NCBI GenBank assembly: GCA_004298015.1
Contig: SCSE01000062.1
Span: 62,001-126,000 of the forward strand
DNA length: 64,000 bases
Source: Rhodanobacter sp.
GTDB taxonomy: Bacteria > Pseudomonadota > Gammaproteobacteria > Xanthomonadales > Rhodanobacteraceae
Direction: 5' to 3'
Shown here: positions 3,123 through 12,197 of the stretch, one piece after another
Position numbering within the stretch: position 1 is the stretch's first letter
How the letters are laid out: every line of letters starts with the position of its first letter
Position numbers and translations under genes: made by a program
The notes under the pieces: generated by a model
What the model saw: the letters and a program-made list of their open reading frames with translations, nothing else
Databases searched by the model: none
What the model was told of the DNA's origin: nothing

Positions 3123-3665
3123 ATGACCAGGTTATGGCTTTCCGTGCTGGCGTTGGCTCTGGTGGCCGGCGGCGTCAATGCGCAGGACGTGCGCTACCAA
3201 AACAACAACAGCAGCAGCAATAACGACAACGTCCACTATGGCTGGGCCGATGTGTTGCGTGCCGACCCGGTGCGCGGTGTGACGCGGACGGAAGTGCCGC
3301 AACAGCGTTGCTATGACCAGCAGGTCATCCGCCGTGACCCTGGCAACAGTACGGCGGGCACGGTCCTCGGCGCAGTGATCGGTGGTGTGCTGGGACATAC
3401 CGTAGGCGGGGGTGATGGGCGTACCGCCGCCACGGTTGTGGGCGCGGTGGCGGGCGGCGCGGTCGGTAACCGGGTATCGGATCACGGCGGTGAGTACGCG
3501 ACCACACGAACCCGCTGCCATCAGGTGGACATGGTTACCGAACAGCGCCGGATCATCGGTTATGACGTGCAATACCGTTATCGCGGCAACGTCTACATGA
3601 GTCGCCTGAGCTATGACCCGGGCGATCGCCTGCGGGTGCGGATACAGGTCGAGCCAGCGGATTGA
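3123..3665 (+). CDS. Glycine zipper 2TM domain protein (exported)
   Basis: Signal peptide MTRLWLSVLALALVAGGVNA; GTVLGAVIGGVLGHTVGGGDGRTAATVVGAVAGGAVGN glycine zipper. Confidence 0.8.
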   Translation: MTRLWLSVLALALVAGGVNAQDVRYQNNNSSSNNDNVHYGWADVLRADPVRGVTRTEVPQQRCYDQQVIRRDPGNSTAGTVLGAVIGGVLGHTVGGGDGRTAATVVGAVAGGAVGNRVSDHGGEYATTRTRCHQVDMVTEQRRIIGYDVQYRYRGNVYMSRLSYDPGDRLRVRIQVEPAD

Positions 3666-3712: not shown

Positions 3713-3786
3713 TTGAGTCGGGCAATTTTCTTGTTGCAAGGCAGCGAGATTATCGCCATCATGTCCGCCAATCATCTGGAATCCTG

Positions 3787-3891
3787 ATGTCTACAGCCGT
3801 CTATACCGCTACCGTACTGACCAGCGCCCGCGCGGCTGCCGGCATGACGTCGCGCGCGCGCCGACCGTTGTATCGACATTCGGCCGGGTAG
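3787..3891 (+). CDS. Putative Arg-containing leader peptide (34 aa) upstream of arginine operon
   Basis: MSTAVYTATVLTSARAAAGMTSRARRPLYRHSAG*; RARR cluster followed by terminator and argF'. Confidence 0.5.
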   Translation: MSTAVYTATVLTSARAAAGMTSRARRPLYRHSAG

Positions 3892-3923
3892 GCTGTCGCA
3901 CGCGTTTCATGTGTATCGACGAT

Positions 3924-3953
3924 AAAACCCGGCCAGTGTGCCGGGTTTTTTTT
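3924..3953 (+). terminator. Rho-independent terminator/attenuator upstream of argF'
   Basis: AAAACCCGGC-CAGTGT-GCCGGGTTTT(TTTT); 10-bp stem plus U-tract; 5' arm also pairs with 3882-3889. Confidence 0.8.
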
Positions 3954-4082: not shown

Positions 4083-5090
4083 ATGACTATTCGGCATTTC
4101 TTGACCACGCAGGATTACAGTCGCACCGAGATCGATGCGCTGTTGGCGCAGGCGGCGGCTTTCAAACGTTCGCCGCAGGGATCGCAGCTGGCCGGCAAGT
4201 CGATTGCGTTGCTGTTTTTCAATCCATCGATGCGCACGCGTACCAGTTTCGAGCTCGGCGCGTTCCAGCTGGGTGGCCACGCCGTGGTCTTGGCGCCTGG
4301 CAAGGATGCCTGGCCGATCGAGTTCGAGCTGGGCAGCGTGATGGACGGCGATACCGAGGAGCATATCGCCGAGGTGGCGCGGGTACTCAGCCGTTACGTG
4401 GATCTGATCGCGGTGCGTGCATTCCCCAAGTTTCAGGACTGGAAGGTGGATCGCCAGGACAAGGTGATCAAGGCCTTCGCGCAATACGCCACGGTGCCGG
4501 TGATCAACATGGAGACGATCACCCATCCCTGCCAGGAGCTGGCGCATGCACTGGCGCTGCAAGAGCATCTGGGCGACTTGCAGAACAAGAAGTACGTGCT
4601 GACCTGGACCTACCATCCGAAACCGCTGAACATCGCGGTGGCGAATTCGGCCCTGCTGATTGCCACCAAGATGGGCATGGACGTGACCTTGCTGTGCCCC
4701 ACGCCGGACTATGTGCTGGATGAGCGCTACATGGAGTTTGGCCGTCTGAATGCGGAGCACAACGGTGGGTCGCTCAAGGTCAGCCATGACATCGAGGAGG
4801 CCTATCGCGGCGCCCACGTGGTGTATGCCAAGAGTTGGGGCGCACTGCCGTTCTTCGGTCAGTGGGACAAGGAAAAGCCGACGCGTGAGGCGAACAAGCA
4901 CTTCATCGTCGACGAGGCCAAGATGGCGCTGACCGACCACGGCCTGTTCAGCCATTGCCTGCCGCTGCGGCGGAACATCAAGGCGACGGATGCGGTGATG
5001 GATTCCCCAGCATGCATCGCCATCGACGAGGCCGAAAACCGTCTACACGTGCAGAAGGCGGTGATGGCGTCGCTGCTGGCCGGTCGCTGA
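4083..5090 (+). CDS. argF': N-acetylornithine carbamoyltransferase (AOTCase, argF')
   Basis: FFNPSMRTRTSFELGAFQLGGHAVVL and HCLPLRRNIKATDAVMDSP match the Xanthomonas-type AOTCase motif rather than OTCase. Confidence 0.92.
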   Translation: MTIRHFLTTQDYSRTEIDALLAQAAAFKRSPQGSQLAGKSIALLFFNPSMRTRTSFELGAFQLGGHAVVLAPGKDAWPIEFELGSVMDGDTEEHIAEVARVLSRYVDLIAVRAFPKFQDWKVDRQDKVIKAFAQYATVPVINMETITHPCQELAHALALQEHLGDLQNKKYVLTWTYHPKPLNIAVANSALLIATKMGMDVTLLCPTPDYVLDERYMEFGRLNAEHNGGSLKVSHDIEEAYRGAHVVYAKSWGALPFFGQWDKEKPTREANKHFIVDEAKMALTDHGLFSHCLPLRRNIKATDAVMDSPACIAIDEAENRLHVQKAVMASLLAGR

Positions 5091-5093
5091 TCC

Positions 5094-5717
5094 ATGTACA
5101 CGCCCAGCTATTTCCGCGAGACACGCATTGAGGCCCTGCATGGGCTGATCCGTGACTGTCCGTTCGCCACCGTGGTCGTGCAAACGCCCGATGGACTGAG
5201 TGCCAACCACCTGCCGTTCGAGCGGATGGACGCGGTGTTGCACGGCCATGTGGCCGGCGGCAATGAGCTGGCACGTATGGATGGGGCCGAGGTGCTGCTG
5301 ATCTTCCGGGGACCGCACGGCTACATCAGTCCGAACTGGTACCCGACCAAGCATGAGACCGGCCGCGAGGTGCCAACCTGGAATTACGCCGTGGTGCATG
5401 TGCACGGCCGACTGAAGGTGATCAAGGATGCGCAGTGGCTGCGTCGGTTTCTGGAGACACTCACCGACCGCCACGAGGCCGGGCAACCGAAGCCGTGGCA
5501 TGTCGGTGACGCGCCGGAGGACCACATCACCGGTTCGCTGCGTGGCATCGTCGGTATCGAGGTGGCGATCGAGCGGATCGAGGGCAAGTTCAAGCTCAGC
5601 CAGAACCATCCCGACGGCAACCGCGCGGGGGTGATCGCGGGCCTGCGCCAGCGTGACGCCGATGGCGATCGCGAGCTGGCTGAGTTGATGCTGCGGCAGG
5701 AGGTGGCCAGGCCATGA
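5094..5717 (+). CDS. FMN-binding negative transcriptional regulator, PaiB family
   Basis: MYTPSYFRETRIEALHGLIRDCPFATVV...SPNWYPTKHETGREVPTWNYAVVHVHG, PaiB signature. Confidence 0.88.
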   Translation: MYTPSYFRETRIEALHGLIRDCPFATVVVQTPDGLSANHLPFERMDAVLHGHVAGGNELARMDGAEVLLIFRGPHGYISPNWYPTKHETGREVPTWNYAVVHVHGRLKVIKDAQWLRRFLETLTDRHEAGQPKPWHVGDAPEDHITGSLRGIVGIEVAIERIEGKFKLSQNHPDGNRAGVIAGLRQRDADGDRELAELMLRQEVARP

Positions 5718-6187
5718 GTCGCCAGCATCACTATCGCGTCGATATCGAGTGGACCGGCAACCGTGGCGTCGGCACCAGCGGCTATCGCGACTACGCGCGT
5801 AGCCACCAGATCCGCATCGTGGGCAAGCCGACGCTGGAGGGCTCATCTGATCCGACCTTCCGTGGGGACGCCGGCCGGCACAATCCGGAAGACATGCTGG
5901 TCAGCGCGCTGTCGAGCTGCCACATGCTGTCCTACCTGCACATGGCGACCGTCGCCGGCGTGGTGGTGGTCGCCTACCGCGATGCCGCTGAAGGCACGAT
6001 GCAGACCGCAGGCGATGGCGGCCATTTTGTCGAGGTCGTGCTGCGCCCCACCGTGACCATTACGGCGGGCAGCGACGCGATCCGCGCCGAGACCGCGCAT
6101 CAGGCCGCCCACCAGGCCTGCTTCATCGCCAATTCCGTGAACTTTCCAGTGCGCTGTGAACCGCACATCGTTATCGCCTCCGACTGA
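5714..6187 (+). CDS. OsmC family peroxiredoxin-like protein
   Basis: GTSGYRDYARSHQIRI...GDAGRHNPEDMLVSALSSCHMLSYLHMATVAGVVV...CFIANSVNFPV. Confidence 0.88.
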   Translation: MSRQHHYRVDIEWTGNRGVGTSGYRDYARSHQIRIVGKPTLEGSSDPTFRGDAGRHNPEDMLVSALSSCHMLSYLHMATVAGVVVVAYRDAAEGTMQTAGDGGHFVEVVLRPTVTITAGSDAIRAETAHQAAHQACFIANSVNFPVRCEPHIVIASD

Positions 6188-6217
6188 CTGCCCTTTCATT
6201 TCCAGGATCTGCAAACC

Positions 6218-7411
6218 ATGAGCAAAGACATTGTTCTCGCCTTCTCCGGCGGTCTCGACACCAGCTTTTGCGTGCCCTACCTGCAGCAGCGCGGCTGGGC
6301 CGTGCATACCGTGTTTGCCGATACCGGCGGTGTCGATGCCGAGGAGCGCGCCTTTATCGAGCAGCGCGCGGCGGAGCTCGGCGTGGCCTCGCACGTCACC
6401 GTCGATGGCGGTCCGGCGATCTGGGCAGGGTTCGTCAAACCGTTCGTGTGGGCGGGCGAAGGCTACCAGGGGCAGTACCCGTTGCTGGTGTCCGATCGCT
6501 ACCTGATCGTCGACGCAGCGCTCAAGCGTGCAGGTGAGCTGGGTACCCGCGCCATCGCGCATGGCTGTACCGGCATGGGCAATGACCAGGTGCGTTTCGA
6601 CCTGACCGTGAAGTCACTCGGCGACTACGAGATCGTGGCGCCGATCCGCGAGATCCAGAAAGAGCACACGCAGACCCGCGCCTACGAGCAGGCTTATCTG
6701 GAGGAGCGCGGCTTCGGCGTACGCGCCAAGCAGCAGGCATATACCATCAACGAGAACCTGCTCGGGCTGACCATGTCCGGTGGCGAGATCGATCGCTGGC
6801 AGGCGCCGGGCGAGGGCGCCGTGGGCTGGTGCAAGCCGCGCGCCGAATGGCCGTCCACGCCGCTGCGCGTGAAGATCGGCTTCGAGCGTGGCGAGGCGGT
6901 CACGCTGGATGGCGGGAAAATCGCCGGCCACACCTTGCTGGCCCGACTCAACAGCTTGTTCGCGGCGTACGGTGTCGGTCGCGGTCTGTATACCGGTGAT
7001 ACCACCATCGGCCTGAAGGGTCGAATCATCTATGAGGCTCCCGGACTGATCTCCTTGCTCACGGCGCACCGGGCACTGGAAGAGGCGGTGTTGTCCAAGC
7101 AGCAGAACCGCTTCAAGCCGGACGTGGCCAGGCGCTGGGTCGAGCTGGTCTACGAGGGGTTCTTCCACGATCCGCTGAAAACCGACCTGGAGGCGTTCCT
7201 GGCATCCAGCCAGTCGACCGTCAACGGCGAGGTGGTGCTTGAGAGCAGTGGCGGTATTGTCAATGCCGTGGCGATCGAGTCGAAGCACATCCTCAATGCC
7301 AAGGGTGCCACCTACGCCCAGACCGCCGACTGGGGGGTGGCCGAGGCCGAAGGTTTCATCAAGCTGTTTGGCATGAGCAGTACGCTTTGGGCCGAGGTCA
7401 ATCGCTCGTGA
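6218..7411 (+). CDS. argG: Argininosuccinate synthase
   Basis: [23 protein letters not shown]-loop; full-length family similarity. Confidence 0.95.
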
Positions 7412-8544
7412 GTACGGAGCAGGGAGCGGGGAGCGGCACGCCGGGTACGGCGCTGCTCGATGCGACGTTGCAGCATCTGCGTGCGCTGGTGTCGTTCGAC
7501 ACGCGCAACCCGCCGCGGGCGATCGGCACCGGTGGCTTGTTCGACTACGTGCGTGCACAGTTGCCGGGATTCGAGGTCACGGTGACCGACTACGGTGCCG
7601 GTGCCGTGACCCTGCACGCGGTACGCGGCGCGCCGAAATATCTGTTCAACGTGCACATGGATACGGTGCCCGACTCACCCGACTGGAGCGCCGATCCGCA
7701 TCGGCTGCGGGTCACCGCCGATCGTGCTGTCGGCCTGGGTGCCTGCGATATCAAGGGTGCGGCGGCGGCGCTGCTGGCGGTCGCCCAGGCGAGCGATGGC
7801 GATATGGCATTGCTGTTGTCCACCGATGAGGAAGCGAACGATGCGCGTTGCATCGCCGGCTTTCTGGCGGAACCGCGCGACTATCAGGCTGTCATCGTCG
7901 CCGAGCCGACAAAAGGTGAGGCCGTGCTGGCGCATCGGGGCATTCAGTCGGTGCTGATGCGCTTCGCCGGGCATGCCGGTCATGCCTCCGGCGAGCAGAA
8001 GCCCAGTGACAGTGCCTTGCACCAGGCGGTTCATTGGGGGGGTGCGGCACTGGATTTCGTCGCCGCGCAGTCGCATCAGCGTTTTGGTGGTTTGACCGGA
8101 CTGCGCTTCAATATCGGTCGCATCGAAGGCGGTATCAAGGCGAACATGATCGCGCCCAGTGCCGAGGTGCGTTTTGGCTGTCGCCCGCTGCCTACGATGG
8201 ACCCGGATCGTTTGCTGGAAGATTTTCGCACCCTGGTCGAGATACCACCGGCGGAGTTCAGCGAAACCTTTCGTGGTGCCTCGTTGCCCGCCGGCGATAC
8301 CGCCACGGCGGAAACCCGGCGACTGTCGGCGCGCGATCTTGCCGACGAACTGGAGATTCCGATCGGCAACGCGGTCGACTTCTGGACCGAGGCGGCGCTG
8401 TTCTCCGCCGCCGGTTACACCGCGTTCGTCTATGGCCCCGGCGACATCGCACAGGCACACAGCGCCGACGAATGGGTGTCGCTTGGACAATTGCAGCACT
8501 ACGCAGAAACCCTCTACCGGACAGTCGCCAGTGGAAAAGCATAA
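7408..8544 (+). CDS. argE: ArgE/M20 family deacetylase (acetylornithine/acetylcitrulline deacetylase)
   Basis: GTG start overlapping argG stop; [42 protein letters not shown]. Confidence 0.9.
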
Positions 8545-9847
8545 GAACACGCGCCAGACCATCGTGCGCCTGCTGTCGAGCATGGGCAGCGCCAAGGAAA
8601 TCCAGCAGTACCTCAAGCGTTTTTCGCAGCTTGATGCCAAGCGCTTTGCCGTAGTCAAGGTGGGCGGCGCGGTATTGCGTGACGAGCTCTCGGATCTCAC
8701 CTCGTCGCTGACCTTCCTGCAGCAGGTGGGGCTTACCCCGATCGTGCTGCATGGCGCCGGACCCCAGCTGGACGAGGAGCTGGCAGCGGCCGGCATCGAA
8801 AAGCAGACCGTCAACGGCTTGCGGGTGACCTCACCGCGGGCGCTGGCGATCGTGCGCAAGGTGTTCCAGGAACAGAACCTGCGACTGGTCGAGGCGTTGC
8901 AGTCGATGGATACCCGCGCCACCTCCGTTCCATCGGGTGTATTCACGTCCAGTTACCTCGATCGCGACGTTTACGGACTGGTCGGCAAGGTGGAAAGCAT
9001 CAACCTGGCACCGATAGATGCCAGCCTGCGCGCCGGCTCGATACCGGTGATTTCCAGTCTTGGTGAGACGGAGGAGGGGCAGATCCTCAACATCAATGCG
9101 GACTTCGCCGCCAACGAACTGGTACGCATGCTGCAGCCCTACAAGATCGTGTTCCTTACCGGCACCGGCGGCTTGCTGGATGGCAACGGCAAGGTGATCG
9201 ATTCGATCAACCTCAGTACGGAGTACGAACATCTGATGGCGCAGCCGTGGATCAACGGCGGCATGCGGGTGAAGATCGAGCAGATTGCCGATCTGCTGGC
9301 TGATCTTCCGCTGACCTCGTCGGTGTCGATTACCCGGCCGTCCGAACTGGCCAAGGAGCTGTTTACCCACAAGGGCTCGGGTACGCTGGTGCGCCGTGGC
9401 GAAAAGGTGTTCACGTTGACGTCGTGGGACGGTATCGAGCAGTCACGCCTGCGCGAGTTGATCGAATCGAGTTTCGGCCGCACCCTGGTGGCCGACTACT
9501 TCGAGCGCACGCAGCCGTATCGGATCTATGTCAGCGAGAACTACCGTGCCGCGATGATTCTGGTGGAGGCCGAGGGACTGGTCTATCTGGACAAGTTTGC
9601 GGTCCTCGACGATGCGCAGGGCGAAGGCCTGGGACGGGCGGTGTGGCAGCTGATGCGCGAGCAGAATCCGCAGCTGTTCTGGCGCTCGCGCCACGGCAAT
9701 GCGATCAATCCGTTCTATTACGGGGAGTCCGATGGCAGTCTCAAGCAGGAGCGCTGGAAAGTCTTCTGGTATGGCCTGGACGGCTTCGACACGATCGCTC
9801 GCTGCGTCGCACACTGCGCCACACGACAACCTACCTTGCTGGACTGA
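8531..9847 (+). CDS. argB: Bifunctional acetylglutamate kinase / GNAT-domain acetylglutamate synthase
   Basis: GTG start overlapping argE; AAK domain [13 protein letters not shown]...[14 protein letters not shown] plus C-terminal GNAT domain [24 protein letters not shown]...[14 protein letters not shown]. Confidence 0.92.
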
Positions 9848-9853
9848 CTACGC

Positions 9854-10810
9854 ATGAACACTGATAGGAAACGCATCGGTATCGTCGGTGCCCGCGGGCA
9901 TACCGGAGTGGAGCTGATCCGCTTGATCACAGCACACCCGGCTCTGCAGCTGGCATTCGTGTCTTCACGCGAGCTGGCAGGTCAGCGCGTTGGCGACCAT
10001 GTGGAGGGCTTTCGCGGCGAGCTGTGCTACGCGAGCCTCGATGCGGCCGGCGTGGCCGGGCAGAACGCGGATGTGGTGATTCTGGCGCTGCCCAACGGCA
10101 AGGCGGAAGCCTATGTCACGGCGATCGACGTGGCTCGACCGGACACCCTGATACTCGATCTTTCCGCCGACTACCGCTTCGACGAGCGCTGGTACTACGG
10201 CTTGCCGGAGTTGACCCGTGACAAATGGCGTGGCCAGCGGCGGATCAGCAATCCCGGCTGCTACGCCACCGCGATGCAGTTGTCGATCGTCCCGTTGCAG
10301 GATCTGCTGGCGGCCCCACCGGTGTGCTTCGGCGTATCCGGGTATTCCGGTGCAGGCACCACGCCGTCGGACAAGAACGATCCGGAAAAACTGCGTGACA
10401 ACCTGATGCCGTACGCGCTGACCGGACACATGCACGAGAAGGAAGCCAGCCGTCATCTTGGCGTGCCGGTGGAGTTCATGCCGCACGTGGCGTCGCATTT
10501 TCGCGGGCTTACCGTCACCACCAATCTCTACCTTGCGCGCAAGATGGCACGCGAGGACGTGATCGCCCGCTTCAGGCATGCCTACGAGGGCGAGCCGCTG
10601 GTCACGGTGCTGGACGAGGCACCGTGGGTCAGTCGTGTCGCCAACCGGCATCATGCGGAGATTGGCGGTTTTGCCGTGTCAGCCGACGGCAAGCGGGTGG
10701 TGGTGGTGGCCACGCTGGACAATCTGTTGAAGGGTGCCGCGACGCAGGCTATGCAGAACATCAATCGGGCGATCAGTGTCGACGAAATGACTGGCATACC
10801 CTTGTTGTAG
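9854..10810 (+). CDS. argC: N-acetyl-gamma-glutamyl-phosphate reductase
   Basis: [22 protein letters not shown]...[17 protein letters not shown]. Confidence 0.95.
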
Positions 10811-10882
10811 GAGCGCACCGTGTGCGCGAAAGCTCTTTGCCGACAGCTACCCAAAAATATCGCGCACAGGGTGCGCTCCTAC
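10807..10882. repeat. Paired REP / GTAG-type inverted repeat between argC and argH
   Basis: GTAGGAGCGCACCGTGTGCGCGA (10807-10829) and TCGCGCACAGGGTGCGCTCCTAC (10860-10882), inverted 23-nt arms; argC stop TAG lies inside GTAG. Confidence 0.9.
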
Positions 10883-10901
10883 ACGTTTTCAGGACATCAC
10901 C

Positions 10902-12197
<1,296 letters not shown>

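Follow-up and report, generated by a model that had tools for sequence, protein, structure and literature searches.

A predicted arginine-sensing attenuator upstream of argF' in Rhodanobacter and across an order of bacteria mostly lacking ArgR

The window (the whole 64,000-nt stretch of Rhodanobacter sp. DNA analysed here) carries argF' and further genes of arginine synthesis, and raises the question of how these genes are controlled. The first-pass annotation had read the region upstream of argF' as a trp/his-type attenuator, and had remarked that arginine genes of proteobacteria are usually under ArgR. An ArgR regulon presupposes a genome that encodes ArgR, and ArgR (PF01316) had no match in this genome. 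It was also absent from 192 of 200 genomes of the order, which answers the remark for this organism and for nearly all of its order. The eight ArgR-bearing genomes all belonged to one family (f12), and in the four of these that were checked argF directly followed coding sequence, with no leader. ArgR was reported in six taxa by Leyn et al. (2016). The attenuator reading was supported by comparison of relatives, in which a leader, a terminator and a covarying antiterminator were conserved before argF'. We consider it highly probable that a ribosome-mediated transcription attenuator of the trp/his type, sensing arginyl-tRNA, precedes argF'-argG-argE-argB-argC-argH.

The argF' leader and its predicted switch

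The features of the locus are collected in Table 1. The leader open reading frame (ORF) with five Arg codons, the terminator and the start of argF' were found exactly where the first-pass annotation had placed them. The 5' neighbour of the leader, a glycine-zipper protein, ends at 3665. The candidate promoter has 8/12 matches, under the 9/12 threshold used, and relatives in family f1 have a stretch resembling it. At the position equivalent to the candidate Shine-Dalgarno sequence, CGGAA or TGGAA was present in most f1 loci. The leader frame was kept in 89 of the 90 loci compared, and the 90th (L123) has an Arg-rich leader of other sequence. Behind the leader, gene spacing suggests that argF' through argH are co-transcribed, with argB encoding acetylglutamate kinase; no promoter-like site was found in the window sequence between the terminator and argF'. 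FMN_bind_2 and OsmC-like proteins are encoded between argF' and argG (5094-6187), within the presumed arginine operon.

Table 1. Coordinates of the argF' leader, its predicted switch elements and the genes behind it
Feature	Position in window	Strand	Details
Candidate promoter TTGCAA-N17-CATCAT	3734..3762	+	by eye, directly 5' of leader
Candidate Shine-Dalgarno GGAA	3778..3781	+	5 nt upstream of leader ATG
Leader ORF, 34 codons	3787..3891	+	MSTAVYTATVLTSARAAAGMTSRARRPLYRHSAG, ATG 3787, stop TAG 3889-3891
Arg codons of leader ORF	3829 CGC, 3853 CGC, 3859 CGC, 3862 CGA, 3874 CGA	+	
Invariant peptide core GMTSRARR	3841..3864	+	codon comparison across loci
Control Arg codons CGC(23), CGC(25), CGA(26)	3853..3864	+	
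Strand 1, overlaps RARRP codons	3852..3867	+	pairs with strand 2 and stretch after (anti-antiterminator), consensus fold
Strand 2, antiterminator 5' strand GGCCGGGT	3882..3889	+	
Hairpin within antiterminator loop	3894..3921	+	predicted fold
Intrinsic terminator	3924..3953	+	10 pairs 3924-3949, loop of 6, T's to 3953
argF', N-acetylornithine carbamoyltransferase	4083..5090	+	NF003384, 601 bits (cut-off 288)
Rest of presumed operon	5094..12197	+	FMN_bind_2 protein, OsmC-like protein, argG, argE, argB, argC, argH

The locus has the parts of an amino acid attenuator. A short ORF rich in Arg codons stands before genes that make arginine, an intrinsic terminator separates it from the first structural gene, and a conserved antiterminator is exclusive with that terminator. 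The terminator 5' arm (3927-3934) doubles as the antiterminator 3' strand, and its sequence ACCCGGCC is an exact complement of GGCCGGGT, as the earlier reading of this 8-nt match had it. The pairing of strand 1 with strand 2, which overlaps the control codons, is a prediction. The free-energy fold of the single sequence was ordinary (z = -0.96) and would not by itself have established the switch. Relatives were therefore compared, and it is this comparative evidence that exceeds chance.

The 30 closest sequences showed no two-sided covariation in RNAalifold because they are too alike, so that a wider set was needed. Pairing of at least 6 nt between arm and strand was present in 100% of loci versus 22% with shuffled spacers, and the predicted pairing of strand 1 reached 6 pairs or more in 83 of the 87 loci. 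Strand 2 read GGCCGGGT, GCTGGGT, GTCGGGT or similar. At arm position 5, the combination of strand 2, 5' arm and 3' arm was C/G/C in 54 loci, U/A/U in 25, U/G/C (a G-U pair) in seven and C/A/U (a mismatch) in one. A tree of argF' implied about 8 and 10 changes. The formal test on independent pairs, which is underpowered, gave a median p of 0.125, short of significance for covariation. An extra exchange, CCAGGTT/AACCTGG, was present in family f9. Strand 2 began 15-24 nt after the last Arg codon in the 87 loci, with a distance of 18 nt in 71 of them; over all leaders compared the distance was about 14-24 nt. In L099, L100, L118 and L123 the stop codon was shifted and strand 2 was unmoved, so the spacing of strand 2 follows the Arg codons and not the stop. 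The ORF frame, the Arg codons and the 8-nt pairing, whose conservation the first-pass annotation had proposed to check, were thus kept in relatives, and the pairing covaried.

Folds were predicted for different ribosome positions, with the leading edge of the ribosome assumed to lie about 15 nt beyond where the P-site codon begins. When the ribosome stood on the last Arg codon, strand 2 was left free and paired with the 5' arm in 87/87 loci; when it stood on the stop, just 3/87 showed this pairing. With no ribosome, upstream ORF sequence held strand 2 in 78/87 loci. Some results count against the attenuator. Even when the stalled position was the starting point, the equilibrium fold of the full-length RNA favoured the terminator at 74 of 87 loci; the switch would thus have to act kinetically, through co-transcriptional folding as in trp. 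In L100 the stop comes so early that a ribosome halted on it would not reach over strand 2.

The attenuator would work as follows. The leader RNA would begin shortly before 3787 and be translated alongside RNA polymerase. When arginine is scarce, the ribosome would stall at R23-A-R25-R26 and cover strand 1, leaving strand 2 (3882-3889) exposed; free strand 2 would pair with the terminator 5' arm, block the terminator and allow transcription of argF' and the genes behind it. When arginine is ample, the ribosome would reach the stop, located where strand 2 ends, and cover this strand, and the terminator would form. If translation were absent, strand 1 would hold strand 2 and the terminator would form as well. 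Comparison of sequences establishes that the ORF, the Arg codons, the spacing, the terminator and the covarying antiterminator are conserved, that they are associated with argF' and that ArgR is generally absent; leader translation, ribosome stalling and the arginine response in vivo are what we infer.

Occurrence of the leader across the order

We found argF' in all 148 genomes of the family. Each of the 30 upstream regions read in the family had the leader; 29 of these peptides start MS.AVYTA.VLTSAR, and one (L030) is divergent. The RNA model built from these 30 regions (R1) had one strong copy in the genome studied and matched 156 of the 300 order genomes searched; in a class-wide sample its matches were restricted to members of the order. 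The core [AS]GMTSRARR was turned into a degenerate DNA pattern, and a scan with it over 85,462 species (one genome each) gave at least 120 matches. Among the 120 core-pattern matches listed, 110 had argF' 91-415 nt downstream, and the matches listed were mostly in Xanthomonas, Stenotrophomonas, Lysobacter, Luteimonas, Dyella, Rhodanobacter and other Lysobacterales. Matches in Lentzea, Dehalococcoidia, Mycobacterium, Cryobacterium and Sumerlaeota were without leader context or argF' downstream and were taken as chance.

A less biased test drew on 40 regions upstream of argF', for the most part from genomes and families missed by R1, of which 39 were readable. An Arg-rich leader ORF was present in 35 of the 39; a terminator accompanied almost all of these leaders, and the majority had a clear complement of its 5' arm; the family tally combined sequences read by eye with automatic output, which missed some terminators and complements. 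Families f5-f11 were without GMTSRARR and kept Arg runs together with the RNA switch. The peptide was unrelated in f5 and f7-f11, where the Arg runs were RRRR (f7, f5, f9), IRRLRRP or GRRARRTRRP (f8), LRRRSRRP (f10) and RRRPRPR (f11). The four f9 regions read were 30-41% GC, so the runs of CGN codons do not stem from GC bias. Four of the 39 regions had no leader (L249 of f6; L268, L271 and L274 of f10), and these are probable losses of the attenuator. In f8, several leaders (L257, L258, L260, L263, L265) are extended at the C-terminus by a conserved GWVA segment, encoded by GGCTGGGTTGCC..GTA, and their stop codon is placed further 3'. In L255 the leader segment is present twice with N between, probably an assembly artefact. 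Together, the sequences suggested that the attenuator spans almost the whole order that includes Xanthomonas, mostly in genomes without ArgR.

Arg codons and the invariant peptide core

In families f1-f4 (89 loci), R23, R25 and R26 were CGC, CGT or CGA in 267 of 267 codons, whereas argF' uses these for 84% of its Arg. The three codons are all read by one tRNA-Arg (anticodon ICG). In the divergent leaders, 126 of 129 Arg-cluster codons were CGC, CGT or CGA as well. Arg15 was ruled out as a control codon, since Tyr, Trp or His frequently stands at this position and CGG occurs there.

Among 56 distinct core sequences of the 89 loci, GMTSRARR had zero replacement differences, and silent differences were common at the codons for G, T, R23, A and R25. 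This is conservation at the amino acid level, as would fit a translated leader, in loci chosen by model or regular expression; since the loci of the main set were picked with a model or expression that contains the core, the invariance is partly selected. The invariance in f1-f4 exceeds what codon-only attenuation needs, and it counts against our preferred explanation. It could be met by a refinement, which we regard as tentative and rather doubtful: Arg-tRNA starvation would still be the signal, and the GMTSRARR core together with the CGA-CCG codon pair would slow the ribosome at RARR and so tune sensitivity. Besides the invariance, R26 was CGA in 88 of 89 loci versus 15.5% CGA in argF', and the consensus helix of strand 1 leaves the A of this CGA without a partner, both of which speak for such tuning; yet TCG and CGA may stem from RNA constraints, and the core features are not kept in f5-f11.

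A second reading takes the nascent peptide as the sensor: arginine or a related metabolite would act on the ribosome holding GMTSRARR, and arrest rather than codon starvation would set the switch, as with ornithine and SpeFL or arginine and the fungal arginine attenuator peptide (AAP). The fixation of the core at the amino acid level in four families, with synonymous sites varying, fits this reading, but families f5-f11 manage without GMTSRARR while keeping Arg runs and the RNA switch, and arginine-induced arrest at RARR would switch on the operon when arginine is present, opposite to what a biosynthetic operon requires; we judge this reading very unlikely. The AAP is likewise a short upstream ORF that controls an arginine gene, and undergoes arginine-induced arrest at its stop codon, acting on translation. 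The argF' leader differs in that it has no conserved residues up to an arrest site at the stop: the residues from RARR(P) to the final AG vary among leaders, which makes arrest at the stop unlikely.

Rfam Xoo5 and other known systems

At the Rfam gathering threshold nothing was found in the leader region. A permissive scan placed RF02242 (Xoo5) at 3791-3899 with 25.1 bits, not reaching the gathering cut-off of 50; further low-scoring matches of that scan, among them isrO and Leu_leader, were taken as terminator-like look-alikes. Eight Xanthomonas and Stenotrophomonas loci with the leader matched Xoo5 at 101-147 bits, and the leader in these genera is RF02242. It occupies the same position before argF' there, whereas Rfam files Xoo5 as a 124-nt sRNA with no ORF, terminator or function. 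In X. oryzae, sRNA-Xoo5 lies between PXO_00354 and PXO_00353 (PMC3039613), the latter being N-acetylornithine carbamoyltransferase. Its transcript gave Northern bands of ~130 and ~100 nt, with the 5' end mapped by RACE and a size of 124 nt (PMC3039613). The predicted terminated RNA in relatives, at 156-159 nt, is longer than these bands and the cloned 3' end (124 nt), which counts against the attenuator; processing or cloning ends may account for the shortfall. No link of Xoo5 to arginine was found in the non-subscription literature searched. In the Xanthomonas and Stenotrophomonas loci L141, L177, L164, L144 and L133, the leader ORF starts at +3 if the 5' end mapped by RACE corresponds to position 1 of Rfam Xoo5, as was assumed because the lengths agree; the leader mRNA of that family would therefore be nearly leaderless, unlike f1 with its Shine-Dalgarno sequence.

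That Xoo5 is a stand-alone or trans-acting sRNA, as in Rfam, whose terminator is an ordinary one, and that argF' has a promoter of its own, would suit the ~100-130 nt RNA seen by Northern blot (PMC3039613), but is extremely unlikely given an ORF conserved at the amino acid level, an antiterminator that covaries with the terminator, a constant position upstream of argF' and the lack of a promoter-like site before that gene in the window. Once released, the leader could act in trans as well.

The attenuator proposed here shares with the enterobacterial trp, his, leu, thr and phe attenuators a leader ORF rich in end-product codons, exclusive 1:2, 2:3 and 3:4 pairings and an intrinsic terminator before the operon. 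It differs from them in that the amino acid is arginine, the core is invariant in f1-f4, and the leader occurs order-wide in bacteria mostly without the matching repressor. The speF leader of Salmonella and E. coli (orf34/SpeFL) is also a leader ORF with Arg codons, which are consecutive, and its translation responds to arginine (PMC6386406); however, it controls ornithine decarboxylase via Rho, RNase G and masking of the ribosome binding site, is induced by ornithine and has no intrinsic terminator switch. The cysS uORFC-8-2 motif of Rhodobacterales combines a uORF and a terminator in predicted ribosome-mediated attenuation (PMC8632094), but with Cys codons, before a tRNA-synthetase gene and in alphaproteobacteria. 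Naville and Gautheret (2010) do not list argF in their main text, and no arg attenuator was found in a study of Actinobacteria.

The invariant core provides a natural test case for attenuator peptides that act via the nascent chain. If the refinement with a slowed ribosome were true, codon starvation and the nascent chain would jointly tune one switch, mixing trp-type attenuation and arrest peptides. Xoo5, a catalogued 'sRNA' family, gains a probable function. Within the literature searched, the argF' leader extends trp-type attenuation in proteobacteria to arginine. The leader could offer a concrete answer to how arginine synthesis is controlled without ArgR in Xanthomonas, Stenotrophomonas, Lysobacter, Rhodanobacter and their relatives.
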